NCBI RefSeq assembly: GCF_000013365.1
Contig: NC_007778.1
Coordinates: 2,356,001-2,420,000, forward strand
Direction of reading: 5' to 3'
Source of the DNA: Rhodopseudomonas palustris HaA2
GTDB lineage: Bacteria; Pseudomonadota; Alphaproteobacteria; Rhizobiales; Xanthobacteraceae
DNA: 64,000 bases
Below, one piece after another: positions 1-21,277 of this stretch (within the stretch, counting starts at the first letter, position 1; each line of letters opens with the position of its first letter). A program made the position numbers and the translations under genes. Below the pieces are notes generated by a model. That model was not told where the DNA came from and searched no databases. It saw only the letters and a program-made list of their open reading frames with translations.

Positions 1-1686
1 GCGGAGATCTGCGACAGCGTCGCCACCTTCGGCTCGGACTTCACGCTGTCGCGCGAATTTCTCGGCATCGAATATCTCGCGGCGACGCTGCGGCGCGACG
101 GCCGCATCGTCCGCGTGCTGTCCGCCGCCAATGAGGGGCTGGACGACGATGCGCTGCTCGCCGAACTACTGGCCTTCGCGCCGCGCATCGTCGGCCTCTC
201 GGTGCTGTACGATCTGCAACTCGGCAATGCGCTGGTGCTGGCGCGGCGGCTGAAGGCGGCGCGGCCCGGTCTTGCCATCGTGTTGGGCGGTCCGCTCGCC
301 ACCGCGCTGTCGCAGGAACTGCTCGGCACCTTCGCCTTCGTGGACTACGTCGTCGAAGGCGAGGGCGAGGCGGCGTTGAGCCGGCTCGCTGATGCGATCG
401 AACGCGGCGAGGCGCCGAGCGACGTGCCGGCGCTGGCGCATCGCGGCCCGGGCGGCATCGTCCGCAATCCGCGCGGCGCGCCGCTCGATCTCGACCGCCT
501 GCCGCATCCGGCGCGCGACGGCCTCGCGTCGATCCGCGCCCGCGGCCTGCCGGCGCCGAGCGCCTATCTCACCACCTCGCGCGGCTGCAAGGCGTTCTGC
601 ACCTTCTGCACTGTGCCGGGCAGCGTGCGGAGCCTGAAGAGCGGCGTCTACCGGATGCGCGATCCGGTCGACGTGGTCGACGAGATCGAAGAGTTGGTGC
701 GCGATCACGGCGTCAGCCGCTTCTACATGGCCGACGACAATTTCCTCGGCTATGGCGAGGACAGCAACGCGCGGATGCATCGCTTCGCCGACGAGATCCT
801 GCGCCGCCGGCTCGCGATCCATTTCCACGCCGAATGCCGCGTCGACTCGCTGATCCCGGAGACTCTGGTCAGACTGCGCGCCGCCGGCTTCGACCAGATC
901 CTGTTCGGCCTGGAATCCGGCTCGGCGCGGACGCTGAAGCGCTGGGCCAAAGGCCAGACGGTGGCGCAGAACGAGGCCGCGATCGCGCTGGCGCGGCGGT
1001 TGCGCATCGAGATGATGCCGAGCCTGATCCTGCTCGACTGGGAGTCCGACCTCTCCGAGATCGAAGAGACGATCGGCTTCATCGAGCGCAACCAATTGTG
1101 GCGCAGCGGCCAGCCGCTGTGGCTGGTCAACAAGCTCAAGGTCCATTGCGGCACCGCCGCCGCGCGCCGCTACGACAGCGTGCACGGCCGGCCGACGCCG
1201 CCCGCGGTCGGCTATTCCGACGCCGATATTCATCGTTGGTGCGAGACCGTGACCTATCAGCACGTCGGCATCGACGATGTCTATGTCGCGGCGTTCTGGC
1301 GCGCGCTCAACGCCGCCGCCAATCGCTGGTCGGTGCTGATCGACGAGGTGCTGCCGCCGTTTCTGAAGAGCCTGCGCAGCGAGGCGCGCCGCGGCGACCG
1401 GACCGATCGCCTCGAACTGGTGCGCCGGCTCGCCGCGTTCCGCCGCTCGATCGGGGCGTCGCTCGCCGCGCTGATGCGGCTGCTGATCGATCAGGCGATC
1501 GCGATGCAGCAGGCGCGCGCGCCGCAGCCGGATCTGCGCGGGCTCGCGCTGGCTCATGTCGAGGCGCAGGAGCGCCGCTTCTTTCCGGAGGGTCTGCATG
1601 TGGCCTTGCAGGATACCGGCCGCCGCCGCGCCGTTGCTGGTCATGCCATCGGCGCGCGGCTGGGCGAGATCGTTTCGACCGCGTGA
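1..1686 (+). CDS. Cobalamin-binding radical SAM enzyme, 5' end outside window
   Basis: The frame is open from base 1, so the true start lies upstream; 561 residues are visible. The first part resembles a B12-binding Rossmann domain (GIEYLAATL, then LGGP and VVEGEGE, as in BchE/HpnP-type proteins). The radical SAM core follows, with its [4Fe-4S] motif CKAFCTFC at about bases 589-612 and a downstream FGLESGS segment. The C-terminal third is helical and unassigned. The family does methyl transfers or ring and skeleton rearrangements on unactivated carbon using SAM, with or without cobalamin. The substrate cannot be read from sequence. The stop overlaps the ATG of the glycosyltransferase by one base (TGATG), so the two are probably co-translated. 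The family is firm; the reaction is unknown. Confidence 0.9.
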   Translation, partial: AEICDSVATFGSDFTLSREFLGIEYLAATLRRDGRIVRVLSAANEGLDDDALLAELLAFAPRIVGLSVLYDLQLGNALVLARRLKAARPGLAIVLGGPLATALSQELLGTFAFVDYVVEGEGEAALSRLADAIERGEAPSDVPALAHRGPGGIVRNPRGAPLDLDRLPHPARDGLASIRARGLPAPSAYLTTSRGCKAFCTFCTVPGSVRSLKSGVYRMRDPVDVVDEIEELVRDHGVSRFYMADDNFLGYGEDSNARMHRFADEILRRRLAIHFHAECRVDSLIPETLVRLRAAGFDQILFGLESGSARTLKRWAKGQTVAQNEAAIALARRLRIEMMPSLILLDWESDLSEIEETIGFIERNQLWRSGQPLWLVNKLKVHCGTAAARRYDSVHGRPTPPAVGYSDADIHRWCETVTYQHVGIDDVYVAAFWRALNAAANRWSVLIDEVLPPFLKSLRSEARRGDRTDRLELVRRLAAFRRSIGASLAALMRLLIDQAIAMQQARAPQPDLRGLALAHVEAQERRFFPEGLHVALQDTGRRRAVAGHAIGARLGEIVSTA

Positions 1687-2594
1687 TGGCGATGTCGCAG
1701 CCGCCGGCGATCTCGATCATCATCCCGACCCGCGACAAGCCGGAGCGGTTGGTGCTGATGCTGTATGCACTGCTGTGCCAGCGCAGCGGCAATGCACGCC
1801 GCATCGAGACCATCCTGGTCGATGACGGCAGCGCCGCGCCGATCGAACCCTTGCTGGCGCCGCTGCGCGCGCAGGGTCTCGAGGTCGAATTGATCCGGAC
1901 CGCAGGCATCGGCCAGGCGGCGGCGCGCAATCGCGGCGCGGCGGCGGCGCGCGGCGAGTTGCTGCTGTTCGTCGACGACGACGTGCTGCTGTCGCCGGAC
2001 TATGTCGCGCGTTGCGTGACGTTGTGCGGCGGCCGTCCCGATCGCGTCGTCCGCGCGCCGGTGTATCAGCTGCGCTATCTCGCGGCGTTTCGCGATCCCG
2101 AGCGCGGCCTGCGCTACGACGGCCGCGCGGCGGACGCGCGGCTTTTCGGCGAGCGCATCTCCCGCGCGATGATCACCGATGACTGGCCCGCCATCACGCG
2201 AAAATGCCGGCATCGCAATCGCTTCGAGCGGCTGGTGTCGGCGGCGCTGGCGCAGCGGCCGCCGCGGTTTCCATGGCTCGGCTATTCCGGCTCCGGCGTC
2301 GCGCTGTCGCGCGCGCTGTTTATGCAGAGCGGCGGTTATGACGAGGCATTCGGCCTGCGCTGGGGCGCCGAGGCGATCGAGCTCGGCTACCGGCTGTGGC
2401 GCGGCGGCGCGCGCTTCGTCGAGGCCGACGGGATCTACTCGGCGCATCTGGATCATCCGCGTGGCGCCTCGCTGTCGAGCTTCGACGACAGTTTCGATCT
2501 GTTTTTCGCCAAGCACCGCGACCCCGCGATCCGCGAGGTGCAGGCGCTGATCCTCGCCGACGACCGGCGCCCGGCGCTGTCAGCGGCGGGCTGA
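1686..2594 (+). CDS. Family 2 glycosyltransferase
   Basis: The 302-residue protein has the GT-A fold pattern: SIIIPTRDK at the N terminus, LVDDGS, an AARNRGAAAARGE segment, the metal-binding motif FVDDDV, and an acceptor-side segment WGAEAIELGYR. Such enzymes transfer a sugar from a nucleotide sugar to an acceptor in the cytosol or at the inner membrane face; no membrane helix is evident. In many relatives the acceptor-side motif reads ED; here it reads EA, so the usual catalytic Asp may be missing. It starts inside the stop codon of the radical SAM gene. Its end overlaps the oppositely oriented aminotransferase by 15 bases. Donor and acceptor are unknown. Confidence 0.88.
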   Translation: MAMSQPPAISIIIPTRDKPERLVLMLYALLCQRSGNARRIETILVDDGSAAPIEPLLAPLRAQGLEVELIRTAGIGQAAARNRGAAAARGELLLFVDDDVLLSPDYVARCVTLCGGRPDRVVRAPVYQLRYLAAFRDPERGLRYDGRAADARLFGERISRAMITDDWPAITRKCRHRNRFERLVSAALAQRPPRFPWLGYSGSGVALSRALFMQSGGYDEAFGLRWGAEAIELGYRLWRGGARFVEADGIYSAHLDHPRGASLSSFDDSFDLFFAKHRDPAIREVQALILADDRRPALSAAG

Positions 2595-3980
2595 CGCGGC
2601 GTCGAGGAAGTGCGCGAGACGATCGACGCCGCGTTCGAACATGTCGGGCTCGGCGGCGCAGGAGACCCGGACCCAGAAGTCTGTCGAGGAGGCGTCGTCG
2701 TGATCGGCAAACACCGTCTCGGTGTAGAAATCGGTGCCCGCCTGGTCGAAAGCGGCGGTGACGAAGTCCCATTCGGTCATCCCGGTCGCGAGCCGGACAC
2801 AATGGTTGAAGCCGGACTGCAAGGCGATGCGGTGCGCGAGATACGGGCCGATCCGCTGTTCGAAGTCACTCCAGTTGGCGCGGCAGGTCGCGCCGATGGT
2901 GGCGAGGTCGGCCGTGTAGCTCTCCAGCGCCGTCGGCCAGTCCAACTCGCCGTCGAGAAAGCGCCAGATCCCGTCGAAGCGGGCGAAATCGTCGGAGAAC
3001 GGCGCGAACAGTTCGAGATAGTGCCGGGCGTCGCGCGCGGTGCGGGCGACGATGCGCTGCGCGTCGCGGCCCGGCGAGCGGCGCAGCCGCCGCGCCATCA
3101 CCCGCAGGATCATGTCGGCGGTCAGCGCGCTGGAGCCGGCATTGACCGGCGACCAGGATTGCCGCTCATTGTGCTTGCGGACGAAATCCACCACCGGCTG
3201 CGCCGCCAGCAGATAGCCGGCGCGCAGGCCGGCGAGGCTGCGCGATTTCGAGTAGCTGCCGATCCAGATCAGCCGCGGCGGAAACGTCGCGAGCGTGTCG
3301 TCCGCAAGCGGCGCCGGCAGATCGTCCTCGTCGGCGGCGGCGAGCGACGGCACCTCGTCGAACACCAGCCAGCCGCCGGCCTGCGCGACGGCGTCGACGA
3401 CACGGCGCAATTCGCCGGAGTCGTAGGTCTCGCCGGACGGATTGGTCGGCTGCGACAGCACGACGACGTCCGGCCGCTCCGCGGCGATCCGCGCGCAGGC
3501 CTCGTCGGCGGTCGGCAGCAGGCGGTCGCGCAGCTCGGACCGCGCGATGCGATAGGCGATGCCGACCTCGTCGCAGACGATGGAGAAGAAGCTGTAGTTC
3601 AGCCCCAGCACCAGCGCGCTGCGGGCACAGACTTCGTCTGCCAGATAGCGGAAGGCGCCGGCGAGCGCGCCGGTGGCGCCGACGGTGAGGCAGACATTGG
3701 CGGGCGCGATCGCACCGCGGGCCGGGCGGCCGAGCCGGTCGTGCATCTCGAAGGCGATCGCCGCGCCGATGCCGAGCGCGCCGCCGGGCGCGGTGTAGTT
3801 CTCGATCAGCCGCCGCTCGCGCAATTCGCGCGCGGCGAGATCGAGCAGCACGCGCGGCGTCTGCAGATGATTGACGCCCGAGGACAGATAGCCGACGCCG
3901 CCATGGCGCGCGATCACCGCGCGGCGCCGCGCCGGATCGTAGAAGTAAGCGTTGGCGCGTTCCAGCGAGCGATAGGTCAT
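2580..3980 (-). CDS. PLP-dependent aminotransferase, class I/II fold
   Basis: A 466-residue fold-type I PLP enzyme. Visible are the QPTNPSGETYD segment, a FDEVPSL segment with the PLP-pyridine Asp, and the Schiff-base lysine motif GSYSKSRSLAGLRAGYL. An N-terminal HLQTPRVLLDLAARE segment recalls capreomycidine-synthase-like members. The start at MTYRSLERAN was chosen because it gives a normal N terminus; an upstream in-frame start at 4043 adds a basic, unlikely extension. The gene is the only minus-strand member of the cluster, convergent with the glycosyltransferase and divergent from the caspase-like gene. It probably makes or modifies an amino-acid-derived building block (inference). Confidence 0.85.
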   Translation of the reverse strand: MTYRSLERANAYFYDPARRRAVIARHGGVGYLSSGVNHLQTPRVLLDLAARELRERRLIENYTAPGGALGIGAAIAFEMHDRLGRPARGAIAPANVCLTVGATGALAGAFRYLADEVCARSALVLGLNYSFFSIVCDEVGIAYRIARSELRDRLLPTADEACARIAAERPDVVVLSQPTNPSGETYDSGELRRVVDAVAQAGGWLVFDEVPSLAAADEDDLPAPLADDTLATFPPRLIWIGSYSKSRSLAGLRAGYLLAAQPVVDFVRKHNERQSWSPVNAGSSALTADMILRVMARRLRRSPGRDAQRIVARTARDARHYLELFAPFSDDFARFDGIWRFLDGELDWPTALESYTADLATIGATCRANWSDFEQRIGPYLAHRIALQSGFNHCVRLATGMTEWDFVTAAFDQAGTDFYTETVFADHDDASSTDFWVRVSCAAEPDMFERGVDRLAHFLDAASARR

Positions 3981-4084
3981 CGCGACGATCCGGGAGAGCG
4001 GACGACGCTTGCGGTACGCGCGTCGATGAGGAAATACTCGCAAAGATTGTGCAGATGCGCAACTTCAATCGCGATGATCGCAGC

Positions 4085-5794
4085 ATGATCCGCGCGTCGT
4101 GTAGCAGCGGAGACGAACTGCTGATCGAAGTGCGCGGCGCAGGTGTAGCTCGGCCCGACGCAGGCGACATCGTCGCCCTCGGCGACGAGGCTGTGTCCGC
4201 AGCGGCGCTGTATGCGGAGCTGACGGGTCGCCGATACATGGTCACGACGACGGCCGGCGCGGATGCGCTCGCCCGCTGCAAGGTCATCGTCGCGCTGACC
4301 GCGCGGATCGACGACGAAATGATCGACGCGCTGTACGGTGAACGCCGCGACGCCTATCCGGGCCTGATCATCGGCGCGACGCCGGAGCGGCTGCGCCGCC
4401 GTTTGCTGAGCTGCGCCGCGGCGCTCGCCGCCGGCGGCGAGGATCGGCCGCATCGGGTCGAGCTGATTCCGGGCCTCGACATCGAGACCATGACGGCCGC
4501 GGACTCGACGCTGCTCGGGCGCAGGTCACGCCCCGACGAGATCCGCACCGCGCTCGGCCGCGGCGACAGCGTGGTGCTGATCCACGGCCATGGCGACGGC
4601 ATCGACGGCGATCTCGGGCCGCTGATCCTGTGCCCGGTCGACGACGTGTGGCGCGCGCGGCCCCCCGACGCTGCGCCGGTGTGCCGGATCACCGCGCGCT
4701 GCTATCGCAACCGGCACCACCTCGGCTCCGATGCGCATCGCGCGGCGCAGCTCACCGTCTCGCAGATCGCCGCGCGGGTGCTGATCTGGAACACCTGCAT
4801 CGGCTTTCCGTCGCAGCACGGGCTGGTCGGGCGGGTGTGGGGCGCGGGCGTGCTGCTCGCGGAAAGTCCGTCGATCGCGGCGCTGCTGACGACATGGCGG
4901 ATCACGATGGCGCCGGCGACGCTGCCGGCCGCTTTGCTCGATCGGCTGATGGCGGGTGCGACCGTCGGTGAGGCGCTCGCCGCGGTCAATGCGCGCGCCG
5001 ATGCGCAGCGCGCGGCTTATCAGCTCTGTCTGTTCGGCGATCCGGATCTGCGGATCGCGCCGCTGCGCACTGAGGCTCCGCAGCCGCGGGCGGCGCGGCC
5101 CCGCAGGCCGCCGCGCGGCGTGCAGCTCGCCGCCGCCGATCCGGCGGCGCGTCTGATCGAACTCTGCGTGCGCGACGGGCCGGTGTCGCAGATGCTGCCG
5201 AAGCCGGCGCGGCGTGAGGCGAGCCTGCGGCGATATCTGCGCAGCGCGCTGCAGGGCTATCGGCAGTCGCAGGATGCGGCGACGCGGGCGCGCCTGCGCC
5301 GCGCTTGCGTTGCCTACGCCGCCGCCCGCGGCAGCTTGCGCGATCTGTGGATTCCACACGCCACCATGGCGGCGGACGGCAAGGAGGCCTGTCCGCATTG
5401 CGGCGCGCCGGCGCTGCGATTTGCGGCGGACCTCGATCATCTCGGCATCGCGCCGCGCGTGCTGCTGAATTGCGGCCGCTGCGAGATCGTGGCCGATCGT
5501 CCCGCGGCGCTACCCGTCACCGCGACCGTGACGCATGACGGCGTCGCGCTGCGCGCCGAGGTCGAGGCCGGGGGCTGGGACGCGATGCTGGTGGCGTCGT
5601 CGCGCTGGCCGGTGGCGCCGCGAATCCGTCGCTGGCCGGCGGCGGCCGACGGCGGACCTGCACCGTTTCTGTCGCTGGCGGATTGGCGCTGGCCGTATCC
5701 GTCCGAAGTCGCGGTCGTGGTCGCCGCCGGCCTCGACATCGCCGTGCTGGCGCGCACGCTGCGGCTGCGGCCCGGCGACGAGCCACCGCGATGA
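4085..5794 (+). CDS. Caspase/gingipain-like protein with C-terminal zinc ribbon
   Basis: With the ATG at 4085 the product has 569 residues; in-frame starts at 4049 (GTG) and 4055 (ATG) are possible, and no ribosome site decides. The central part has the layout of clan CD cysteine peptidases: a strand ending in His (IHGHGDG, H167/H169), a strand ending in Cys (IWNTCIG, C238), then LCLFGDPDLRI, a signature seen after the catalytic domain in gingipain-type (C25) proteins. Near the C terminus C436-x2-C439 and C463-x2-C466 form a probable zinc ribbon. No signal peptide is seen, so it is probably cytosolic. It overlaps the decarboxylase start by four bases. It could cleave a precursor peptide or act as a scaffold; activity is inferred only. 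Confidence 0.7.
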   Translation: MIRASCSSGDELLIEVRGAGVARPDAGDIVALGDEAVSAAALYAELTGRRYMVTTTAGADALARCKVIVALTARIDDEMIDALYGERRDAYPGLIIGATPERLRRRLLSCAAALAAGGEDRPHRVELIPGLDIETMTAADSTLLGRRSRPDEIRTALGRGDSVVLIHGHGDGIDGDLGPLILCPVDDVWRARPPDAAPVCRITARCYRNRHHLGSDAHRAAQLTVSQIAARVLIWNTCIGFPSQHGLVGRVWGAGVLLAESPSIAALLTTWRITMAPATLPAALLDRLMAGATVGEALAAVNARADAQRAAYQLCLFGDPDLRIAPLRTEAPQPRAARPRRPPRGVQLAAADPAARLIELCVRDGPVSQMLPKPARREASLRRYLRSALQGYRQSQDAATRARLRRACVAYAAARGSLRDLWIPHATMAADGKEACPHCGAPALRFAADLDHLGIAPRVLLNCGRCEIVADRPAALPVTATVTHDGVALRAEVEAGGWDAMLVASSRWPVAPRIRRWPAAADGGPAPFLSLADWRWPYPSEVAVVVAAGLDIAVLARTLRLRPGDEPPR

Positions 5795-7077
5795 GCGCCC
5801 CGGCCGCGTTCGATCCCGATCGGGTCGCGACGCTCGCCGCGCGCCACGGCACGCCGCTGTTCATCTACGACGCGCCGGCGATGCGCGCCGCCGCGGCGCG
5901 ATTGCAGGAGGCGCTGCCGCCGGGCGCGCGATTGTTCTTCGCGGTGAAGGCCAATCCCGCGCCCGATGTGATCCGGCTGTTCGCCGGCGAGGGCCTCGGC
6001 GCCGAAGTGGCGTCGGGCGGCGAATTGCGGCTCGCGCTCGCCTGCGGCGTCGCGCCGGATCGCATCGTGTTCTCCGGCCCGGCGAAGACCGCGCCGGAGC
6101 TGCGCTGCGCGATCGAGGCCTGCATCTTCGCGGTGCAGGCGGAATCCGTCGCCGAGCTCGACACGCTGCAGGCGCTGTGCGTCGCGCGCGGCGCGACGGT
6201 GCGCGTCGCCCTGCGCGTCAATCTCGGGCCGGGCGGCGAACGCCGCGGCGGCTGGGGCGGGCCTTCGCCGTTCGGCATGGATACCGACGCGCTGGACGAG
6301 GTCACAGCGCGCGCCGCGCGGCTCGATCGTCTGCGCATTGTCGGCCTGCACAATCACCAGGCGTCGCAGACGCTCGATCCGGCGAAGCTGATCGCGCGGT
6401 TCGACGCCTTTGCGCGCGTGGCGGCGTCGCTCGGGTCGCGCTTCGATCTGCAGTTCGTCAATTTCGGCGGCGGCTTCGGTGCGCCGTTCTACGCCGACGA
6501 CGCGCCGCTCGATCTCGCGCCGGTCCGCGCGTGTTTCGCCGCGCTCGCCGGCGTGTTCGGCGACCGGCCGCTGCAGTTCGCCGCCGAATCCGGGCGCTAT
6601 CTCGTCGGGCCCGCGGGCTGCTACGTCGCGCGCGTGGTCGATGTGAAGCGGTCGTTCGGCGTGCGCTACGCGCTGCTCGACGGCGGCATTCATCACGTGC
6701 TCGGCCTGTCCGGAACGATGCGGTCGCTGCGCCGGCCGGTGGCGGTGGCGCGGGTCGGCGCGCGATCGGGGGAGCCTTGCGAGCCGACCGAAATCGCCGG
6801 GCCGCTGTGCACGCCGATCGATCGCCTCGCCGGCGCCGCCGAGCTGCCGTGCGATCTCGCCGCCGGCGACCTGCTGGCGTTCGCCAATTGCGGAGCCTAT
6901 GCCAAGCACGCGAGCCCGCTGAACTTCCTCGGCCACGACTGGCCGGCCGAACTGATGATCGACGGCGCGCGCGTCATCGTCCTGTCGCCGCAAATTGCAT
7001 TCGGGCCGGCGCTGTGGCAATCACGCGAGGTACTCCAGCGATTTCGATGCGATGGCAAAATCCCCACGAGCTCCTGA
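5791..7077 (+). CDS. PLP-dependent decarboxylase, LysA/ornithine-type (fold III)
   Basis: The 428-residue protein has the alanine-racemase-like barrel with the PLP lysine K53 in FFAVKANP, a GVAPDRIVFSGPAK segment, HNHQASQ, a glycine-rich FVNFGGGFG phosphate-binding segment and the C-terminal ANCGAYAKH motif that carries the cross-subunit Cys. It groups with diaminopimelate/ornithine decarboxylases and with secondary-metabolism members such as those acting on carrier-bound amino acids. The ATG overlaps the preceding stop (ATGA), so it is co-translated with the caspase-like protein. This makes a lysine-biosynthesis housekeeping role unlikely. The substrate is unknown. Its 3' end overlaps the GntR regulator by 26 bases. 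Confidence 0.87.
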   Translation: MSAPAAFDPDRVATLAARHGTPLFIYDAPAMRAAAARLQEALPPGARLFFAVKANPAPDVIRLFAGEGLGAEVASGGELRLALACGVAPDRIVFSGPAKTAPELRCAIEACIFAVQAESVAELDTLQALCVARGATVRVALRVNLGPGGERRGGWGGPSPFGMDTDALDEVTARAARLDRLRIVGLHNHQASQTLDPAKLIARFDAFARVAASLGSRFDLQFVNFGGGFGAPFYADDAPLDLAPVRACFAALAGVFGDRPLQFAAESGRYLVGPAGCYVARVVDVKRSFGVRYALLDGGIHHVLGLSGTMRSLRRPVAVARVGARSGEPCEPTEIAGPLCTPIDRLAGAAELPCDLAAGDLLAFANCGAYAKHASPLNFLGHDWPAELMIDGARVIVLSPQIAFGPALWQSREVLQRFRCDGKIPTSS

Positions 7078-7789
7078 TCGCGGCGCGGTCATCTACAAGG
7101 CGTTGTGGCACGCCATCATCGAGCAGGCGCTGCAGCCCGGCGCCAAGCTTCCCGAAGACGCGATCGGCGAGAAATTCGGCGCCAGCCGCACCATCGTCCG
7201 CGCCGCGCTGGGCCGGTTGGCCGCGGAAGGGCTGGTCGAACTGCGCCGCAATCGCGGCGCCGCGGTCGCGACCCCGAGCTGGAACGAGGCGCGCGACATC
7301 TTCGACGTCCGGATCGGGCTGGAGCGGCTGGTGGTGGCGCGGCTCGCCGGCCGGCTGACGCGCGAGCAGATCAGGCAACTCGAGCAGCATGTCGACGCCG
7401 AGCAGCAGGCGAGGGGCAGCAATGTGCCGCTGTCGATCCGGCTCGCCACCGCGTTCCATATCCGGCTCGCCGAGATGACCGGCAATCCGGTGCTGGCGCG
7501 CTATGTCAGCGAGGTCGCCTCGCGCTGCGGACTGATTCTCGCGCTGTACAGCCGGCCGCATTCGGCCGATTGCGCCGTCAGCGAGCATCGCGCCATCATC
7601 GCCGCATTGGCGTCGGGCGACGCCACCCGCGCCACCGCGCTGATGGATCATCATCTCGACGCAGTGGCCGAGCGCGCGCTGATCGTGCCGCACGCCCCGG
7701 AAGCGCGCGACATCCAGGACATCCTGTCGCCCTATGCGAAAGAGGCCGCGTTGCCGAAGACCAGGAAAGCCGGCGCGAAGAAGCGTTGA
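7052..7789 (+). CDS. GntR-family transcriptional regulator, FCD (FadR) subfamily
   Basis: A 245-residue repressor-type protein. The N-terminal winged helix contains LPEDAIGEKFGASRTIVRAAL. The C-terminal all-helical FCD ligand domain carries the metal/ligand histidines in FHIRLAEMTGN, EHRAIIAAL and MDHHL. A Lys/Arg-rich tail ends the protein. The start MAKSPRAP was preferred to an upstream GTG because it removes a non-conserved leader. It sits just before the NTF2-like gene and the Liv-type transporter, so it more likely controls those than the cluster it overlaps. A near-palindromic GTATAC site lies in that intergenic region. Confidence 0.9.
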   Translation: MAKSPRAPDRGAVIYKALWHAIIEQALQPGAKLPEDAIGEKFGASRTIVRAALGRLAAEGLVELRRNRGAAVATPSWNEARDIFDVRIGLERLVVARLAGRLTREQIRQLEQHVDAEQQARGSNVPLSIRLATAFHIRLAEMTGNPVLARYVSEVASRCGLILALYSRPHSADCAVSEHRAIIAALASGDATRATALMDHHLDAVAERALIVPHAPEARDIQDILSPYAKEAALPKTRKAGAKKR

Positions 7790-8357: not shown

Positions 8358-8510
8358 TGTGCGGGCGCTGTCTGGATAATGGGCAGCGGTCGCGAAAAAC
8401 GGCGGTCTCAGTGGGCTTTCTCGCGAATTCCGGCGGCTTGGCGCCGATCTCCGGGATGGCACAGCGCTTGCTAGCCAGGATGCGATCTTTCATCCTGCGA
8501 GGAGCCCGTG

Positions 8511-9695
8511 ATGAGTTTCGCTTCCCATATTTCGCGTCGCCTGTTGCTCGCGGCCGGCGCCGCGTCGCTGGCACTGATCGCTGTCGGGCCGGCATCGGCC
8601 CAGGAGACCCTGAAGGTCGGCCTGGTGGCGGCGATGTCCGGCCAGTCGGCGAAGTCCGGCGAGGCCATCGTCCGCGGTCTGTCGCTGGCGCTGGACGAGA
8701 TCAACGCCAAGGGCGGCGTGCTCGGCAAGAAGCTGGAACTGGTGGTGCGCGACGACGAGAGCAATCCCGCCAAGGGCGTGATCGCCGCGCGCGAGCTGGT
8801 GCAGCGCGAGAAGGTCGCCGCTTACTTCGGCGGCATCGATACGCCGGTGTCGATGGCGATCGTGCCGTTCGCCAATCAGTCCAAGGTGCCGTTCATCGGC
8901 GTCTGGGCCGCCGGTACCAAGATCACCCGCAACGGCGCGCCGGAGAACTACGTGTTCCGCGTCTCCGCGGTCGACGAACTGGTCGACATCGCGCTGGTCG
9001 ACTACGCGGTCAAGAAATACGGCGCCAAGAAGCCGGGCATGATCCTCATCAACAATCCCTGGGGCGAATCCAACGAGGCCGGGCTGAAGAGCGCGCTCGA
9101 CGCCAAGAAGATGACCGCCGCCGGCATCGAGAAATTCGAGACCGGCGACGTCGACGTCGTGCCGCAGCTCACCCGGCTGAAGGACGCCGGCGCCGACACG
9201 CTGTTCATGGTCGCCAATGTCGCGCCCTCCGCGCAGGTGGTGAAGTCGCTCGACCGGATGGGCTGGAGCGTGCCGGTGGTGTCGCATTGGGGCCCGGCCG
9301 GCGGGCGTTTCACGGAGTTGGCCGGCCCCAGCGCCGAGAAGGTCCACTTCATCCAGACCTTCAGCTTCTCCGGCAACACCAGCCCGAAAGCCGTGGCGCT
9401 GTTCGACGCGCTGAAGAAGAAATATCCCGAGGTCAAGACGGCCGCCGACGTCACCCCCGCGGTCGGCATCGCCAATGCCTACGACGCCATGCATCTCACC
9501 GCGCTGGCGATCGCCAAGGCCGGCTCGACCGAAGGCCCGAAGGTCCGCGAAGGCTTCTACCAGATCGGCAGCTATGACGGGCTGATCAAGACCTACAACA
9601 AGCCCTTCACCGCCGACAATCACGACGCGCTGTCGCCCTCGGACTATCTGTTCACCTACTTCAAGGGCGCCGAGATCCTGCCGCTGACGAACTGA
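8511..9695 (+). CDS. Periplasmic substrate-binding protein of a Liv-type ABC transporter
   Basis: A 394-residue type I periplasmic binding protein. It begins with a signal peptide containing a twin Arg (SRRLLLAAG) and a likely cut after PASAQ. The mature part starts LKVGLVAAMSGQSA and continues with SLALDEINAKGGVLG and a VVRDDESNPAKG segment, typical of LivJ-like proteins (Peripla_BP_6). It delivers ligand to the downstream permease. The ATG at 8511 has GGAG six bases upstream; a GTG three bases earlier is less likely. The ligand is unknown; the amidohydrolase and amidase downstream suggest an amide, ureide or heterocycle rather than an amino acid. Confidence 0.92.
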   Translation: MSFASHISRRLLLAAGAASLALIAVGPASAQETLKVGLVAAMSGQSAKSGEAIVRGLSLALDEINAKGGVLGKKLELVVRDDESNPAKGVIAARELVQREKVAAYFGGIDTPVSMAIVPFANQSKVPFIGVWAAGTKITRNGAPENYVFRVSAVDELVDIALVDYAVKKYGAKKPGMILINNPWGESNEAGLKSALDAKKMTAAGIEKFETGDVDVVPQLTRLKDAGADTLFMVANVAPSAQVVKSLDRMGWSVPVVSHWGPAGGRFTELAGPSAEKVHFIQTFSFSGNTSPKAVALFDALKKKYPEVKTAADVTPAVGIANAYDAMHLTALAIAKAGSTEGPKVREGFYQIGSYDGLIKTYNKPFTADNHDALSPSDYLFTYFKGAEILPLTN

Positions 9696-9705
9696 CGGCC
9701 CTCTT

Positions 9706-9927
9706 CCCTCTCCCCGCTCTTGGCGGGGAGAGGGTGGCTCGAAGCGGCGAAGCCGGTTCGAGTCGGGTGAGGGGCCAGGCACGGCGCCGACCGATCGGAT
9801 AGCTTTCGGGTCGGATGGTGCGCAGACCGGGTGACCCGAGAGACTGGTTGCAAGGCGGCTTCGTGCCTGGCCCCTCACCCGACCGGCTTCGCCGGTCGAC
9901 CTCTCCCCGCAAAGGGCGGGGAGAGGT
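9706..9927. repeat. Composite palindromic repeat, family A, copy 1
   Basis: Two GC-rich hairpins of the CTCTCCCCGC...GCGGGGAGAG type (9706-9734 and 9904-9927) flank perfect 22-base inverted arms at 9762-9783 and 9862-9883. The whole block lies between the binding-protein gene and livH. It may lower expression of the downstream permease genes or protect the upstream mRNA. A second copy of the family is at 24352-24492. Confidence 0.8.
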
Positions 9928-9958
9928 TGGTACCAAACGTTCTCTCCTAAGGATTCCC

Positions 9959-10828
9959 ATGCTCACCTCCGCCATCATCTCGGGCATCGGCCTCGGCAGC
10001 ATGTACGGGCTGATCGCGCTGGGCTTCCACATCACTTACGTGGTGTCCAATACGGTCAATTTCGCGCAGGGCTCGGCGATGATGCTGGGCGCCGTGCTGG
10101 GCTACACGTTCGGGGTCAGATATGGCTGGCCGATGCCACTGGCGATCGTCGCGGCGCTCGGGGTCTGCGCGCTGTTCGGCCTGGTGGTCGAGCGCATCCT
10201 GGTGCGGCCGTTCGTGGTGCGCGGCTCCAATGCCTGGCTGATGGCGACCGTCGCGGCCGGCATCGTGCTCGACAATGCGGTAATGTTCACCTTCGGCAAG
10301 GAGCCGCGCGGCTTTCCCTCCGACTGGGCGAGCCAACCGATCCGGCTTTTCGGCGCCGGCGTGTATCCGCTGCAACTGGTGATCCCGCTGGTCGGGATCG
10401 GCGCCGCCGCGGTGATGCATCTGCTGCTGCGCCATACGCGGCGCGGCAAGGCGTTGCTGGCGGTGGTGCAGAACCCCGACGCCGCGCGGCTGATGGGTAT
10501 CAACGTGCATCGCACGATCGCGATCTCCTTCATGGTGTCGACGGCGCTCGCCGGTCTCGCCGGCCTGCTGATCGCGCCGTTGTTCAGCGTCAGTTCGGAG
10601 ATGGGCACGCTGTTCGGCATCAAGGCGTTTGCGGTGGCGATCCTCGGCGGCATGGGCTCGGCTTGGGGCGTGGTGATCGCCGGTCTCGCCTACGGCCTGA
10701 TCGAGGCGCTGGTCACCTCGTTCCTCGGCTCGGTCTACACCCAGATCGTGGTGTTTTCGGTGGTGATCCTGGCGCTGGCGCTGCGGCCGAACGGCCTGTT
10801 CGGCCACGCCGCGATCAACAAGGTCTGA
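9959..10828 (+). CDS. livH: Liv-type ABC transporter permease LivH
   Basis: A 289-residue inner-membrane permease with about eight hydrophobic segments. The N terminus GIGLGSMYGLIALGFHITYV and the segment VNFAQGSAMMLGA are standard for LivH, as are the late GIKAFAVAILGGMGS and GLIEAL segments that contact the ATPases. The ATG at 9959 is chosen because AAGGA lies five bases upstream; the longer in-frame reading would translate the repeat. It forms the channel together with the LivM part of the next protein, whose ATG follows two bases after this stop. Confidence 0.92.
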   Translation: MLTSAIISGIGLGSMYGLIALGFHITYVVSNTVNFAQGSAMMLGAVLGYTFGVRYGWPMPLAIVAALGVCALFGLVVERILVRPFVVRGSNAWLMATVAAGIVLDNAVMFTFGKEPRGFPSDWASQPIRLFGAGVYPLQLVIPLVGIGAAAVMHLLLRHTRRGKALLAVVQNPDAARLMGINVHRTIAISFMVSTALAGLAGLLIAPLFSVSSEMGTLFGIKAFAVAILGGMGSAWGVVIAGLAYGLIEALVTSFLGSVYTQIVVFSVVILALALRPNGLFGHAAINKV

Positions 10829-10830
10829 CG

Positions 10831-13329
10831 ATGACGCTTCCGACGAAATTGCGCAGCTACGCGATGCCGGCGACAGTGCTGATCCTCACCGCGATCGCCG
10901 CGCTCTACGCCGCGCGGGCGGAAGGCTATTTGCCGTTCGTGCTGGCGATGGTGGCGCTCACCTGCATCGTAGGCGTCGGTCTCAATGTGCTGGTCGGGCT
11001 CACCGGGCAGATCTCGATCGGCCATGTCGGCTTCTACGCGATCGGCGCCTATACGGTGGCGATCCTGACCCTGCAGGGACTGAGTTTCTGGCTGGCGCTG
11101 CCGCTTGCGGGCGTGATCGCCGGCGCCATTGGTCTGCTGCTGTCGCTGCCGGCGCTGCGCGTCAGCGGGCCTTATCTCGCGATGATCACCATCGCCTTCG
11201 CCTTCATCGTTCAGCATCTCACCATCGAATGGCGCGGCCTCACCGGCGGCTCCAACGGCCTGATGGGGCTGCCGCCGCCGACGCTGGCCGGCACCATGTT
11301 CACCGAGCGCGAGATCGCCCTGCTGGCGATCGGGCTGGCCGGTGCTTCGACCTATCTGTTCTATCGGCTCGCCGGCTCGGCCTGGGGCAAGGCGATGGTC
11401 GCGGTGCGCGACGCCGAGATCGCGGCACGCTCGATCGGGCTCAATCCGGTCAGCGTCAAGGCGGCGGCGTTCGTGCTGTCGGCGGCGCTGGCGGGCATCG
11501 CCGGTGGCATCTTCGCGGCGCTGATCGCCTTCGTCGCGCCGGACTCGTTTCCGTTCTCGCAGTCGATCCTGTTCCTGTTCGCCTGCATCGTCGGCGGCGC
11601 CGGATGGGTGCTCGGCCCGGTGGTCGGCGCCGCCATCACCGTGGTGCTGCCGGAGATGCTGTCGCAACTCGCCGAATATCGGCTGCTGTTCTTCGGGCTG
11701 CTGCTGCTGCTGGTGCTGTGGCTGGCGCCGGAGGGTATCCTCGGCACGCTGGCGCGGCTGGTGCGCCGGATCGATCCGCGGCCGGCGCAGCCCGGCGATG
11801 TCGCCGCGTTTCTCGCCGCGTCGCCCGAGCGCGGCGCGCTCGAGGTGAGCGGCATCGGCATCAGCTTCGGCGGCATCCGCGCGGCCTCGCAGGTGTCGTT
11901 CATCGCCGAGCCCGGCATGGTCACCAGCGTGATCGGCCCGAACGGCGCCGGCAAGACCACCGTGCTCAACATGATCGGCGGCTTCTACAAGCCCGACGCC
12001 GGCAGCATCCGGCTTGGCGGGCAGGAACTCGCCGGCGAGCCGGCGTGGAAGGTGGCGCGCGCCGGCATCGGCCGCACCTATCAGACCACCAAGCTGTTCG
12101 AGACCATGAGCGTGCGCGACAACGTGCTGATCGCGATGCGCCGCGGCCGGCTCGGCTCGATGCTGGCCTTCGCCGCCAACGACGCCGACGAGGCCGCGGC
12201 CGAAGCGCTGATCGATTTCGTCGGCTATCGCGGCGCGCTGGCCGCGGTCGCCGGCGATCTGCCGCATGTCGATCGCCGGCTGGTCGAGATCGCCCGCGCG
12301 CTGGCGATGCGGCCGCGCGTGCTGCTGCTCGACGAGCCCGCCGCCGGGCTGATGGCGGCCGACAAGGACGCGCTGAGCGGCCTGCTGCGCCGGATCGCCG
12401 ATCTCGGAATCGCCGTCATTCTGGTCGAGCACGACATGCGGCTGGTGATGGGGATTTCCGACCACGTCGTGGTGCTCGACGCCGGCACGCCGATCGCGGC
12501 CGGCACCGCCAACGTCATCCGCCGCGATCCGAAGGTGCTGGCCGCCTATCTCGGCGGCGCCGAAATGCGCGCGCGCGGCCGCGAGACGCCGTGGGACGGC
12601 TCGCGCGACGCGGTGCTGGACGTGATCGATCTGGTCGCCGGTTATGGCGCCGCGCCGGTGCTGCAAAAGGTCAATCTGCAAGTGCGGCCCGGCGAGATGG
12701 TGGCGCTGATCGGCGCCAATGGCGCCGGCAAATCGACCATGATGCGCGCGCTCTCCGGCCTGCTGCGCCCGGTGCAGGGCGACGTCATTCTCGACGACGA
12801 ACGCATCGAGACGATCGAGGCGCATCGTATCGCCGCGCGCGGCCTCGCGCTGGTGCCGGAAGGCCGCCAGGTGTTTCCCGAACTCAGCGTCTACGACAAT
12901 CTCGAACTCGGCGCCAACACGCGGACCAACGTCGACTACGCCGCCGAGATCGAAGCCGTGCTGAAGCGGTTTCCGCGGCTGCGCGAACGGCTGAACAGCC
13001 GGGCAGGGCTGTTGTCCGGCGGCGAGCAGCAGATGCTGGCGATCGCGCGCGGCATGATGGCGAAGCCGCGCATCCTGCTGCTCGACGAGCCGTCGCTGGG
13101 GCTTGCGCCCGCAATGATCAACGAACTTTACGACGTGCTCGCCGATCTGCGCGACGAGGGCATCACCATCCTCCTGGTCGACCAGATCGCCGTGCTGGCG
13201 CTGGCGGTGTCCGACCGCGGCTATGTGATCGACAGCGGCCGCATCGTCCGCGACGACAGCGCCGCGGCGCTCGCCAGCGATCCCGAGGTCGAGGCCGCTT
13301 ATCTCGGCCATGCCGAAGCTGCGCAGTGA
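10831..13329 (+). CDS. LivM-LivG-LivF fusion: ABC permease plus two ATPase domains
   Basis: One uninterrupted frame of 832 residues holds three normally separate subunits. Residues 1-315 or so are a LivM permease (GLNVLVGLTGQISIGHVGFY). Residues about 335-590 are a LivG ATPase with Walker A GPNGAGKTT near residue 369 and Walker B LLLDEPAAGL. Residues about 600-832 are a LivF ATPase with Walker A GANGAGKST near 628, signature LSGGEQQ near 728, and Walker B LLLDEPSLGLAP. The LivG signature is degenerate: the expected LS-G-Q stretch reads LPHVDRR near residue 477. LivM-LivG fusions are known in this group; a triple fusion is rarer as far as I know. Confidence 0.92.
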   Translation: MTLPTKLRSYAMPATVLILTAIAALYAARAEGYLPFVLAMVALTCIVGVGLNVLVGLTGQISIGHVGFYAIGAYTVAILTLQGLSFWLALPLAGVIAGAIGLLLSLPALRVSGPYLAMITIAFAFIVQHLTIEWRGLTGGSNGLMGLPPPTLAGTMFTEREIALLAIGLAGASTYLFYRLAGSAWGKAMVAVRDAEIAARSIGLNPVSVKAAAFVLSAALAGIAGGIFAALIAFVAPDSFPFSQSILFLFACIVGGAGWVLGPVVGAAITVVLPEMLSQLAEYRLLFFGLLLLLVLWLAPEGILGTLARLVRRIDPRPAQPGDVAAFLAASPERGALEVSGIGISFGGIRAASQVSFIAEPGMVTSVIGPNGAGKTTVLNMIGGFYKPDAGSIRLGGQELAGEPAWKVARAGIGRTYQTTKLFETMSVRDNVLIAMRRGRLGSMLAFAANDADEAAAEALIDFVGYRGALAAVAGDLPHVDRRLVEIARALAMRPRVLLLDEPAAGLMAADKDALSGLLRRIADLGIAVILVEHDMRLVMGISDHVVVLDAGTPIAAGTANVIRRDPKVLAAYLGGAEMRARGRETPWDGSRDAVLDVIDLVAGYGAAPVLQKVNLQVRPGEMVALIGANGAGKSTMMRALSGLLRPVQGDVILDDERIETIEAHRIAARGLALVPEGRQVFPELSVYDNLELGANTRTNVDYAAEIEAVLKRFPRLRERLNSRAGLLSGGEQQMLAIARGMMAKPRILLLDEPSLGLAPAMINELYDVLADLRDEGITILLVDQIAVLALAVSDRGYVIDSGRIVRDDSAAALASDPEVEAAYLGHAEAAQ

Positions 13330-17233: not shown

Positions 17234-19624
17234 ATGGGCGATATGAATGGGGCAAAGGCGCCGAGATCGTTGCGCGCGGAAGCATCGATCCGGACTTTCA
17301 ACGACGAACTCGACAATCACTACGGCCGCAAAGTGTCGGCCGTCGCCGGCATGATCGCGGTGGCGTCGATCGGCGGCGCCGAGGCGCAACAATCCAGCCT
17401 TCCGGCGGTCACCGTCGACGCCCCGGTGGCGCGACCGCGTCCGGCGGCGAAGCCGACGCCCGACCAGGTCCGTGCCCGCACCGCGCTGCGTCGCGCGGCG
17501 CGGCGGGCTCAGCCGGCTCAGGTGGCGCCGGTACCGTTCCCGAATGCCGGCGCGCTGTCGGCGGATCGCAACCCCTATGCCGACGCGGATGCGCCCTACA
17601 AGGTCGACCGGCTGTCGGGCACCAAGTTCACCGAGCCGCTGCTGAACACGCCGCGCACCGTGACCGTGCTGAGCAAAGAGATCCTGGAAGACAAGAACGC
17701 CACCTCGCTGCGCGACATCGCGCGCTCCACCGCCGGCGTCACGCTCGGTACCGGGGAGGGCGGCAACGCCTTCGGCGACCGCTTCTTCATCCGCGGCTTC
17801 GATGCCCGCAACGACGTGTTCATCGACGGCATCCGCGATCCCGCGATCTCGATCCGCGAGAATTTCTTCACCGAGCAGGTCGAGATCCTGCGCGGCCCGG
17901 CCTCGACCATGGCCGGCCGCGGCACCGCCGGCGGCGCCATCAACATCGTCACCAAGCAGGCCACCACCGCCGGCAATTTCACCAAGGCCGAGACCACCTT
18001 CGGCACCGACGCCACCAAGCGCGTCACCGTCGACGTCAACCAGGTGATCAGCCCGACGCTCGCGGTGCGGTTCGACGGCCTGTATCAGAAGGCCAATGTC
18101 GCCGGGCGCAACTACGTCTATGACGACCGCTGGGGCACGCTCGCCGCGGTGAAGTGGACGCCGACCGACGCCGTCAAGGTCACCGCCAACTACGTCCACA
18201 CCGATCTCGACGGCCTGCCGGATTTCGGCGTGCCCTACAACACCACGCTGCGGAAGCCTTCGACCAGCGTCAACGTTCCGCGCGACACCTATTACGGCTT
18301 CATCAATCGCGACTTCCAGAAGGCGCAGCAGGATTTCGGCACCGTGATCGGCGAGTTCGCCATCACCCCCGATCTGACGCTGAGCAATCGTTCGCGCGCC
18401 GGCCGTTCGGTGCTCGACTACATCGGCACACTGCCGAGCAATCCGACCGCGACCACCGTGCAGCTCGCCTCGCAGAGTCGCTATCAGGTCACCAACGTGC
18501 TCGCCAACCAGACCGACCTGACCTACAAATTCGACACCGGTCCGGTGAAACACGCGCTGATCGGCGGCGCCGAAATCTCGCGCGAGAGCGTGATGCGCGA
18601 CACCTATGCGGGGCTGACCTCGGAACTGACCGGGTTCCAGACCGGCGGCCGCATCACCGTGCCGCTGCTGTCGCCGCCGAACGAGTTCGAGTTCGCCAGC
18701 ACGCCGCAGCGCGCCTACAACCCGACCTTCATCACCGTCGACACCAAGTCCGCTTACCTGATCGAAACCGCGAACTGGAACGATTTCGTCATCCTCAACG
18801 GCGGGGTGCGCTACGATGACTACAGCATCACCGGCCACACCGCGAGCACATCGACCGGCGTGCAGTCCGGGATGTGGAACTACAATGTCGGCGGCGTGGT
18901 CAAGCCGCTGCCTTACGCCAGCCTCTACGCCGCCTACGCCACCTCGAGCAATCCGGTCGGCGCCGAACTCGACGCTTCGGGCACCGCCTATGGCGGCCTC
19001 GTGGTCAACAACACCACCTTCCAGGCGCTGTCGCCCGAATTGAACAAGGCGGCGGAGGTCGGCACCAAATGGGAACTGTTCGATCGGCACCTGCTGGTGA
19101 CCGGGGCGCTGTTCCAGACCGAGAAATCGAACGCGCGCGAGACCCAGGGCAGCACCATCCTGTCCACCGGCGTCTATCGCGTGCGCGGCATCGACCTCGG
19201 CGTCTCCGGCAAGCTGACCGAGCGCTGGAGCGTGTTCGGCGGTCTGGTGCTGATGGAGAGCGAGGTGCTGCAATCGATCGATCCGACCCAGGTCGGCGCC
19301 AAGCTCGCCAACATCGCGCACCAGTCGTTCAACGTGCTCACCAAATATCGCATCGGCGAGCAGTGGGAGGTCGGCGGGCAGGCGACCTACGCCTCGAAGA
19401 TCTACGGCGGCACCTTCGGCGCCATCAACGGCAACGTGCTGCCGGAGCATTGGCGGTTCGACAGCTTCGTCGAATTCAAGGTCGACAAGCACCTGACCGC
19501 CAAGCTGTCGGTCAACAACATCTTCAACACGACCTATTACGACGCGTTCTATCGCAGCAACTCGCCGTTCGTGTTCATCGCGCCGGGCCGTTCGGTCTGG
19601 CTCAGTTTGCGCGCCGCGCTCTGA
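17234..19624 (+). CDS. TonB-dependent siderophore receptor, Fiu-like
   Basis: A 796-residue outer-membrane receptor. An extended N terminus of about 32 residues precedes the hydrophobic signal segment [19 protein letters not shown] TonB box (LPAVTVDAP), a Pro/Ala/Arg-rich linker and the plug domain follow ([53 protein letters not shown]). The rest is the 22-strand barrel with [15 protein letters not shown] near the end. It imports ferric catecholate or similar siderophores using energy from the TonB-ExbB-ExbD complex encoded just downstream. The last residue is Leu rather than the usual Phe. The extended leader could mean a later start. Confidence 0.93.
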
Positions 19625-19649
19625 CACGCGCGTCGCCACCGGAGCTGCC

Positions 19650-20339
19650 ATGCTGGTTTGCATTCCCGATGTGTTGTCCAGGCATGAGGTGGCGGAGTTC
19701 CGCCACGTCATGGATGCCGCGGATTGGGAAGACGGCCGTTCCACCGCCGGCGCGCAGTCGGCCATGGTCAAGCGCAACGAGCAGCTTCCGCCCGACGGCG
19801 AGCTCGCCCGTGCGCTCGGCCGTCGCATCATCCAGGCGCTGACCGCCAATCCGAAATTCGTTTCGGCGGCGGTGCCGCTGCAGATCTTCCCGCCGCTGTT
19901 CAACCGCTATGCCGCGGCGGGCAATCATCATTTCGGCATTCACGTCGACAACGCGGTGCGCGGCGATCCGCTCACCGGGCTGCGGATCCGTACCGATCTG
20001 TCGGTGACGTTGTTCCTCTCCGAGCCGGACGAATACGACGGCGGCGAACTGGTGATCGAAGACACCTACGGCTCGCACGAGATCAAGCTGCCGGCGGGAG
20101 ATTGCGTGCTGTATCCGTCGACCAGCCTGCACATGGTCACGCCGGTCACGCGCGGTGCGCGGGTCGCGTCTTTTTTCTGGCTGCAGAGCATGATACGAGA
20201 TGCCCATGCGCGCAGCATGATCTACGACCTCGACGGGGCCATTCAGGCTCTCGTCGAGCGGCTGGGACGAGATGACCCTGAAACGGTCAAATTGACCGGT
20301 ATCTATCACAACCTCATCCGCTACTGGGCCGAAGTATGA
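19650..20339 (+). CDS. piuC: Fe(II)/2-oxoglutarate-dependent PKHD-type hydroxylase (PiuC/YbiX)
   Basis: The 229-residue protein matches the PiuC/YbiX family in length. It has the iron ligands of the jelly-roll fold: His and Asp in [11 protein letters not shown] and the distal His in [13 protein letters not shown], followed by an Arg that would hold 2-oxoglutarate. The segment [20 protein letters not shown] is characteristic. PiuC proteins are encoded beside catecholate siderophore receptors and are thought to modify the siderophore or its iron complex in the cytosol. GGAG five bases upstream supports the start. The stop overlaps the exbB ATG, so it is coupled to the energy-transducing genes. 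Confidence 0.93.
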
Positions 20340-21277
20340 AACTGTCGAAAATTCGATCGATCACCGTCGCATTGGTTGCCGCGATCATGCTCGCGCCGAT
20401 GGCGTCGGTGTTTGCGCAGCCGGCGCCCGCGCAACCGTCTCCGGCGATGTCGACGCCCTCCGCCGCACAGCCGGCGGCCGCCCCGGAGAGGACGACCGCG
20501 CCCGAGACCACCGGCGCGACCCAGGCCGCAACCCAGGCCTTGCCTGCCTCCGGGACCACGCCGAACGGCAGCGTGGCGCCGGGTCTCACGGAACTGTCGC
20601 CGTGGTCGATGTTCCTGCAGGCCGATATCGTCGTGAAGGCGGTGATGGTCGGTCTGGCGCTCGCCTCGATGATCACCTGGACCATCCTCATCGCCAAGAA
20701 GATCGAACTCGGCCGCGCTCGCTGGCGGCTGCGCTCGGCGCTGAAGCAGATCGCCGACGCGCGATCGATGTCCGAAGCGCAGCTCGCGCTCGGCGACAAG
20801 ACCAGCCCGGTGTCGATGCTGCTCGCGGCGGCGCTGCGCGAGGCGCGGGTCTCGGCCGGGCTCGCCAGCGACGAGGGCATCAAGGAGCGCGCCGCGTCGA
20901 GCTTCAGCGAAATCGTCCGCGCCGAGTCGCGGCACATGCGCCACGGCATGGGCTTCCTCGCCACCATCGGCGCGACCGCGCCGTTCATCGGCCTGTTCGG
21001 CACGGTGTGGGGCATCATGAACAGCTTCATCGGCATTTCGAAATCGCAGACCACCAATCTGGCGGTGGTGGCGCCCGGTATCGCCGAGGCGCTGCTCGCC
21101 ACCGCGATCGGCCTGGTCGCGGCGATTCCGGCGGTGATCATCTACAATCACTTCTCGCGCGAGATTAAGGTCTATCTCGAAATGGTGGCGCGGGCGTCGG
21201 GCGCGGCGTTGCGGCTGTTGTCGCGCGATCTCGATCGCAGCCACGGCACCGGCCGGCACGCGCGCGCGGCGGAGTAG
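20336..21277 (+). CDS. exbB: TonB-system proton channel ExbB
   Basis: The 313-residue protein starts with a cleavable-looking signal ([20 protein letters not shown], cut near VFAQ). A Pro/Ala/Thr-rich periplasmic extension of about 60 residues follows, and then the MotA/TolQ/ExbB core with three membrane helices. The core includes [26 protein letters not shown] and [16 protein letters not shown]. The N-terminal extension is usual for the ExbB of alphaproteobacterial siderophore operons. It forms the inner-membrane proton channel with ExbD. Its ATG overlaps the piuC stop by four bases, and exbD follows after three bases. Confidence 0.95.

Follow-up and report, generated by a model that had tools for sequence, protein, structure and literature searches.

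A 17-gene cluster in Rhodopseudomonas palustris HaA2 combines a conserved Leu-His-Trp peptide with carrier, aminosugar and gingipain-fold protease genes, probably for an unknown natural product

Four groups of described pathways supply the closest parallels for the locus considered here. In the pearlins, the enzymes are guided by a carrier peptide, from which a protease frees the product (excerpts of PMC9303977); in butirosin biosynthesis the decarboxylase BtrK works on BtrI-bound glutamate (excerpts of PMC7857480); rifK, rifL, rifM and rifN have roles in the formation of 3-amino-5-hydroxybenzoic acid (AHBA) and kanosamine in the rifamycin pathway (excerpts of PMC8788734); and the steps of MitE, MmcB, MitB, MitC and MitD have been set out for mitomycin (excerpts of PMC8621148 and PMC9570651). 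Features resembling parts of all four meet in a cluster that crosses the left edge of a 64,000-nucleotide stretch of Rhodopseudomonas palustris HaA2 (‘the window’; G000:C1:2356001-2420000, in a genome assembled as a single contig of 5.33 Mb), together with a cysteine peptidase of the gingipain fold and a small conserved peptide ending in Leu-His-Trp.

A sequence-only reading of the window had proposed that five neighbouring genes at its start, encoding a B12-binding radical S-adenosylmethionine (SAM) enzyme, a GT2 glycosyltransferase, two pyridoxal phosphate (PLP) enzymes and a gingipain-like peptidase, belong to a natural-product cluster without known assignment that continues beyond the left edge. 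All five are present, by Pfam and reading of the open reading frames (ORFs), and once the stretch to the left is read they form the right end of a set of 17 genes covering about 18.7 kb and starting some 11.6 kb before window base 1: twelve further genes lie wholly to the left, as does the 5′ end of the B12-radical SAM gene, which starts 111 bases outside the window. The short overlaps seen on the plus strand are also there, of 1 base between the B12-radical SAM and GT2 genes and of 4 bases between those for the peptidase and decarboxylase; in the cluster as a whole, ten pairs of plus-strand neighbours share 1 to 13 bases and one further pair shares 70. The genes are as follows, from left to right, with positions to the left given on the extended stretch L005 (window position = L005 position minus 18000) and ACP standing for acyl carrier protein.

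L005:6378-6557, plus strand: peptide of 60 amino acids (aa), conserved ORF
L005:6727-7638, plus strand: di-iron desaturase-family protein (Pfam FA_desaturase, 131.6 bits)
L005:7626-9374, plus strand: AsnB amidotransferase (TIGR01536, 317.6 bits, above the cut-off of 267.1)
L005:9371-10021, plus strand: HAD phosphatase (TIGR01454, AHBA_synth_RP, 106.4 bits, under the cut-off of 246.65)
L005:10018-11094, plus strand: Gfo/Idh oxidoreductase (PF01408)
L005:11091-12035, plus strand: ROK kinase (PF00480)
L005:11966-13183, plus strand: DegT aminotransferase (best match AHBA synthase)
L005:13180-14550, plus strand: acyl-AMP ligase (PF00501; best PDB matches salicylate- and dihydroxybenzoate-AMP ligases, 63 and 61 bits)
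L005:14547-15563, plus strand: PIG-L deacetylase with an additional N-terminal domain (Pfam and predicted model)
L005:15560-16744, plus strand: radical SAM protein (PF04055)
L005:16576-17409, minus strand: conserved 277-aa protein with no Pfam match
L005:17558-17893, plus strand: ACP (PP-binding at E 0.0029 and PRK12449 at 23.2 bits, neither reaching its cut-off), overlapping the next gene by 4 bases
Window 1-1686 (in full L005:17890-19686, 598 aa), plus strand: B12-binding radical SAM protein (Pfam B12-binding and Radical_SAM)
Window 1686-2594, plus strand: GT2 glycosyltransferase (PF00535)
Window 2580-3980, minus strand: fold-type I PLP enzyme (PF00155), in a tail-to-tail overlap of 15 bases with the GT2 gene
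Window about 4085-5794, plus strand: gingipain-fold (clan CD) cysteine peptidase, caspase/gingipain-like (motif and predicted model)
Window 5791-7077, plus strand: fold-type III PLP decarboxylase, BtrK-like, its final 83 bases overlapping the next ORF, a GntR/FCD regulator (6995-7789)

Two details of gene layout may be recorded here. The minus-strand gene for the 277-aa protein and the 3′ end of the radical SAM gene, on opposite strands, have 169 bases in common (L005:16576-16744), and overlaps occur in relatives too; in G050, another genome of the family, the B12-radical SAM and GT2 genes lie in a single ORF of 924 codons (L011/L012, joined positions 17992-20766).

Genomes of other genera carry the same set of genes, which rules out a chance neighbourhood. 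A relative of the gingipain-fold protein is found in three of the 198 family genomes (HaA2 itself, G050 and G068), and the fold-type I PLP enzyme in HaA2 only among 347 genomes of the order (E up to 1e-50) and 398 of the phylum (E up to 1e-30), two samples that overlap. Searched against GTDB contigs, this PLP enzyme matched seven loci, those of a Hyphomicrobiales metagenome-assembled genome (G068), Mangrovicella endophytica and five Aurantimonas, the latter two genera belonging to the Aurantimonadaceae (Hyphomicrobiales); nine genomes in total are thus known to carry this rare pathway. We read seven in detail (HaA2, G050, G068, Mangrovicella, A. marina, A. endophytica and A. coralicida), and the peptide and peptidase counts below refer to these, leaving aside A. 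marianensis (L019) and an uncultured Aurantimonas (L018). AsnB, ROK, DegT, radical SAM, 277-aa, ACP, B12-radical SAM, GT2, fold-type I PLP, gingipain-fold and decarboxylase genes are present in all seven, so that the co-occurrence expected of the five window families is borne out. The ligase and PIG-L are seen in six and cannot be judged in A. coralicida because its cluster is split over two contigs; the desaturase is seen in all but Mangrovicella, Gfo/Idh in all but G068, and the HAD phosphatase in three, HaA2, G050 and G068. Most of the catalytic motifs looked for are kept, among them the PLP-lysine motif S[YF]SKS of the fold-type I enzyme (7/7), with the ligase patterns failing in several divergent members. 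In Mangrovicella the radical SAM gene is split over two frames (L044:17939-19211), a frameshift or an assembly error. A tblastn search for plasmid-borne copies of the B12-radical SAM protein gave no match at E 1e-30.

Both a small peptide and a carrier protein, suggested as things to look for beyond the left edge, are encoded there. Searching with the 60-aa ORF of HaA2, we find ten copies of the peptide, at least one in each of the seven genomes, and all ten end in Leu-His-Trp with the stop codon directly after. The full C-terminus reads D-[E/S]-L-H-W, the Asp two residues before the Leu being invariant and the residues just upstream variable. The Leu codon varies silently, and the nonsynonymous rate (dN) is below the synonymous rate (dS) in 8/8 pairs, with dN/dS of about 0.25 for HaA2/G050 and 0.02 for copy 2 of A. 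marina/A. coralicida; the weakest case is copy 1 of the latter pair (0.13 vs 0.25). Among 385 genomes of the class there were eight matches, the only full one being the copy in HaA2; the other seven (E 0.0017 to 0.0087), all partial matches that stop short of the C-terminal Trp, were judged to be chance. The Glu form is found in three genomes whose examined stretches contain no FkbH match and the Ser form in four genomes with FkbH and a second ACP, a correlation that amounts to one phylogenetic split and on its own proves nothing. In those four Aurantimonadaceae, the FkbH-domain protein and second ACP are inserted in the cluster (L046:2146-4229, with equivalents in A. marina, A. coralicida and Mangrovicella). 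All seven genomes thus encode a ribosomal peptide together with modifying enzymes, as is required of ribosomally synthesised and post-translationally modified peptides (RiPPs), and the peptide would be the precursor.

The peptidase adopts the caspase/gingipain fold in a predicted model (mean pLDDT, the model confidence score, 73). The protein also has a zinc-ribbon-like stretch with four Cys residues and, at its C-terminus, a beta domain. A Cys and a His are conserved in all seven members and correspond by motif and fold, rather than by residue superposition, to the gingipain dyad. We place the protein, from motif and model, as a gingipain-like member of clan CD and, by sequence, outside family C25. 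It is 12% identical to the gingipains RgpB and Kgp, from which it further differs in the zinc-ribbon-like stretch and in its location in a biosynthetic cluster. In G068 and the Aurantimonadaceae its gene lies at the opposite end of the cluster from that in HaA2, with the peptide ending 2-15 bases ahead of the assigned peptidase start in three Aurantimonas and lying about 0.4 kb upstream of the peptidase in G068 and Mangrovicella. Its substrate may be a ribosomal peptide or a carrier-bound product, as the sequence-only reading had suggested.

Since the cluster encodes a Leu-His-Trp peptide, a carrier, aminosugar enzymes and a protease, its product is probably an unknown natural compound assembled on the peptide or derived from it. 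That it is a dedicated, RiPP-like hybrid pathway, in which the gingipain-fold protease finally frees the modified peptide end, is a reading for which we judge the case evenly balanced. From the single reactions and their sequence to the site of cleavage and the product, the scheme that follows is inferred. The sugar set would lead to (UDP-)3-amino-3-deoxyglucose; the acyl-AMP ligase would charge the ACP with an acid; the decarboxylase would strip a carboxylate off the carrier-bound unit; the GT2, radical SAM, AsnB and other enzymes would modify the C-terminal residues of the peptide or attach units there; and the protease would act last, cutting the modified end from its leader, possibly after the invariant Asp. 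That this amounts to a new hybrid class, in which the encoded Leu-His-Trp end is joined to carrier-borne, aminosugar and perhaps polyamine units before release by the protease, we put forward only tentatively.

For the sugar branch the nearest comparison is rifamycin: the best match of DegT is AHBA synthase and that of the HAD protein AHBA_synth_RP, and Gfo/Idh and ROK proteins are present, so a RifK/L/N(/M)-like set may convert UDP-glucose to UDP-kanosamine (the labels RifL and RifN being putative and taken from gene context only). It differs in that the HAD protein was found in 3/7 clusters and in that the five genomes searched have no aminodehydroquinate synthase. Each of the five genomes searched (HaA2, G050, Mangrovicella, A. 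endophytica and A. marina; G068 and A. coralicida were left out) has a single dehydroquinate (DHQ) synthase, and no second protein of this type was found in them; on this ground we set aside the idea that the sugar genes lead to AHBA. 2-Deoxy-scyllo-inosose synthase is itself of the DHQ-synthase family, and the same single copy in these five genomes led us to reject a 2-deoxystreptamine aminoglycoside. The cluster accordingly shares with butirosin an ACP and a decarboxylase closest to BtrK (208 bits, against 138 for the second-best reference, diaminopimelate decarboxylase), which points to a BtrK-type enzyme, but not the 2-deoxystreptamine route. Guanitoxin-like arginine chemistry was also rejected, the best NCBIfam matches of the desaturase (GntB, 50 bits, cut-off 380) and the fold-type I PLP enzyme (GntC, 79 bits, cut-off 415) lying far under threshold and giving a hint only; so was anti-phage defence, PADLOC having no match for the four proteins tried.

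Several observations weigh against the proposed hybrid pathway. Neither a product nor a modified form of the peptide is known, and since precursor peptides are not usually found beside a carrier-protein pathway, the peptide here might serve a different function. Peptide and peptidase stand at opposite ends of the cluster in HaA2 and G050. The Pfam C25 profile matches none of the seven peptidases at E up to 10, in a test where HMMER filters discard most matches above 0.1. The N-terminal domain of the PIG-L protein, modelled as four strands, two helices and a strand and with no family match, gives no RiPP recognition element by Pfam in four members, and a fold search that barely tested the domain listed none. 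The hoped-for transporter is likewise not common to the clusters: the HaA2, G050, G068 and Mangrovicella stretches have no EamA match, and an EamA-type transporter beside the peptide gene (L041:8558-9553 and L045:9259-10137, by Pfam; L047:8954-9928, by tblastn) is excluded from the cluster parts because it is found in three Aurantimonas clusters only. Among the matches listed, the open-access literature held nothing on the cluster itself or on proteases of gingipain fold acting in the maturation of ribosomal natural products, and a review of RiPP leader proteases (PMC10885120) names neither C25, gingipain, caspase, clan CD, C11 nor clostripain.

The peptide could instead be a re-usable carrier, on whose C-terminus a small molecule is built and then clipped off by the peptidase, the carrier being regenerated. 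Pearlins offer the precedent, as well as a small conserved peptide, a B12-radical SAM protein and a protease in common, and an invariant C-terminus directly preceded by variable positions would suit such a role. The defining PEARL, a LanB-like peptide aminoacyl-tRNA ligase, is however absent from the Pfam families of the 16 non-peptide genes in the HaA2 cluster, and the Trp is genetically encoded rather than added, which together leave us thinking this explanation unlikely. We consider somewhat less probable still a mitomycin-like carrier pathway, in which an AHBA-type aryl acid is passed by the ligase to the ACP, receives a sugar from the GT2, loses an acetyl group through PIG-L and is reshaped by radical SAM enzymes in the manner of MitE/MmcB/MitB/MitC/MitD, with the peptide an accessory. 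The matching enzyme types and ACP-based logic do recur (an AHBA-synthase-like DegT and an aryl-AMP-ligase-like ligase included), on a comparison by enzyme type rather than by Mit sequence; but the single DHQ synthase of each of the five genomes means that there is no dedicated aminodehydroquinate synthase, and the peptide, peptidase, AsnB and BtrK-like decarboxylase, which along with the PLP enzymes are additions relative to mitomycin, would be left without a role.

Peptide and protease might, thirdly, form a self-protection or control module (an inhibitor or a switch, for example) beside a non-ribosomal aminosugar/polyamine metabolite. Genes for SpeD, BpsA (Pfam BpsA_C, 146.6 bits) and a GNAT protein do accompany the cluster: they adjoin the peptide in G050, are embedded in the clusters of Mangrovicella, A. 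marina and A. endophytica, and in HaA2 are 20-22 kb to the left of the peptide (G000:C1:2322488-2324604, matched ranges), with BpsA on a separate contig in G068 and only SpeD and GNAT seen at the A. coralicida locus examined. BpsA is present in 6/6 cluster genomes searched and in six of the 198 family genomes, including all three with the cluster; the other three (G125, G003 and G005) have no match to the cluster peptidase, so the linkage is suggestive rather than strict. As the invariant final residues also suit the end of a substrate better than an inhibitor, we regard a control module as improbable. Branched-chain polyamine genes are described mostly from thermophilic bacteria and euryarchaea (excerpts of PMC12979288); here SpeD, BpsA and GNAT occur in alphaproteobacteria. 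A set for cell-surface polysaccharide or exosortase-A-type polymer decoration, hinted at by TIGR03099 for the decarboxylase (275 bits, cut-off 478.45), TIGR03108 for AsnB (224, cut-off 816.9) and TIGR03098 for the ligase (40, cut-off 592.35), is rejected as highly improbable, all three scores being under their cut-offs, the GT2 being single, and flippase, polymerase and exosortase not being among the families matched in the HaA2 cluster; with no housekeeping or polysaccharide family accounting for the set, the original assignment to a natural-product cluster is supported.

The site itself carries a trace of the cluster’s past. On comparison with 15 other genomes of the genus, both host flanks match close together only in G1236 and G1235, where they are 6.9 and 6.3 kb apart, against 23.8 kb in HaA2. 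At a point 131 bases before the peptide, the left flank in G1236 passes directly into the final 44 codons of the decarboxylase ORF, the first ten or so of which are similar to the corresponding codons of G050, G068 and A. endophytica; only about four of the codons are still in frame in G1235.

L065 (G1236), about 7370, reverse strand: apparent scar of a lost cluster, left flank joined to decarboxylase tail
L066 (G1235), about 7118: the corresponding scar

The simplest reading would be that the block from peptide to decarboxylase once stood at this site and was then lost in the sister lineage, a statement that concerns this site, copies elsewhere in G1236 and G1235 being outside the search. Just right of the cluster (window 8508-13329) are a periplasmic binding protein (Pfam Peripla_BP_6) and, by eye, the apparent remainder of a branched-chain amino acid ABC transporter; the first part of this region is host flank kept in the sister species.

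If the hybrid pathway proposed here is correct, it would represent a class of peptide-based natural product in the Hyphomicrobiales that couples a ribosomal peptide with carrier-based thioester chemistry and with the making of aminosugars, and would bring in a protease fold that does not figure in the wording of the leader-protease review (PMC10885120). Among the organisms with the cluster, at least Aurantimonas endophytica DSM 103570 is a named strain in a public deposit, which allows a direct search for the product.

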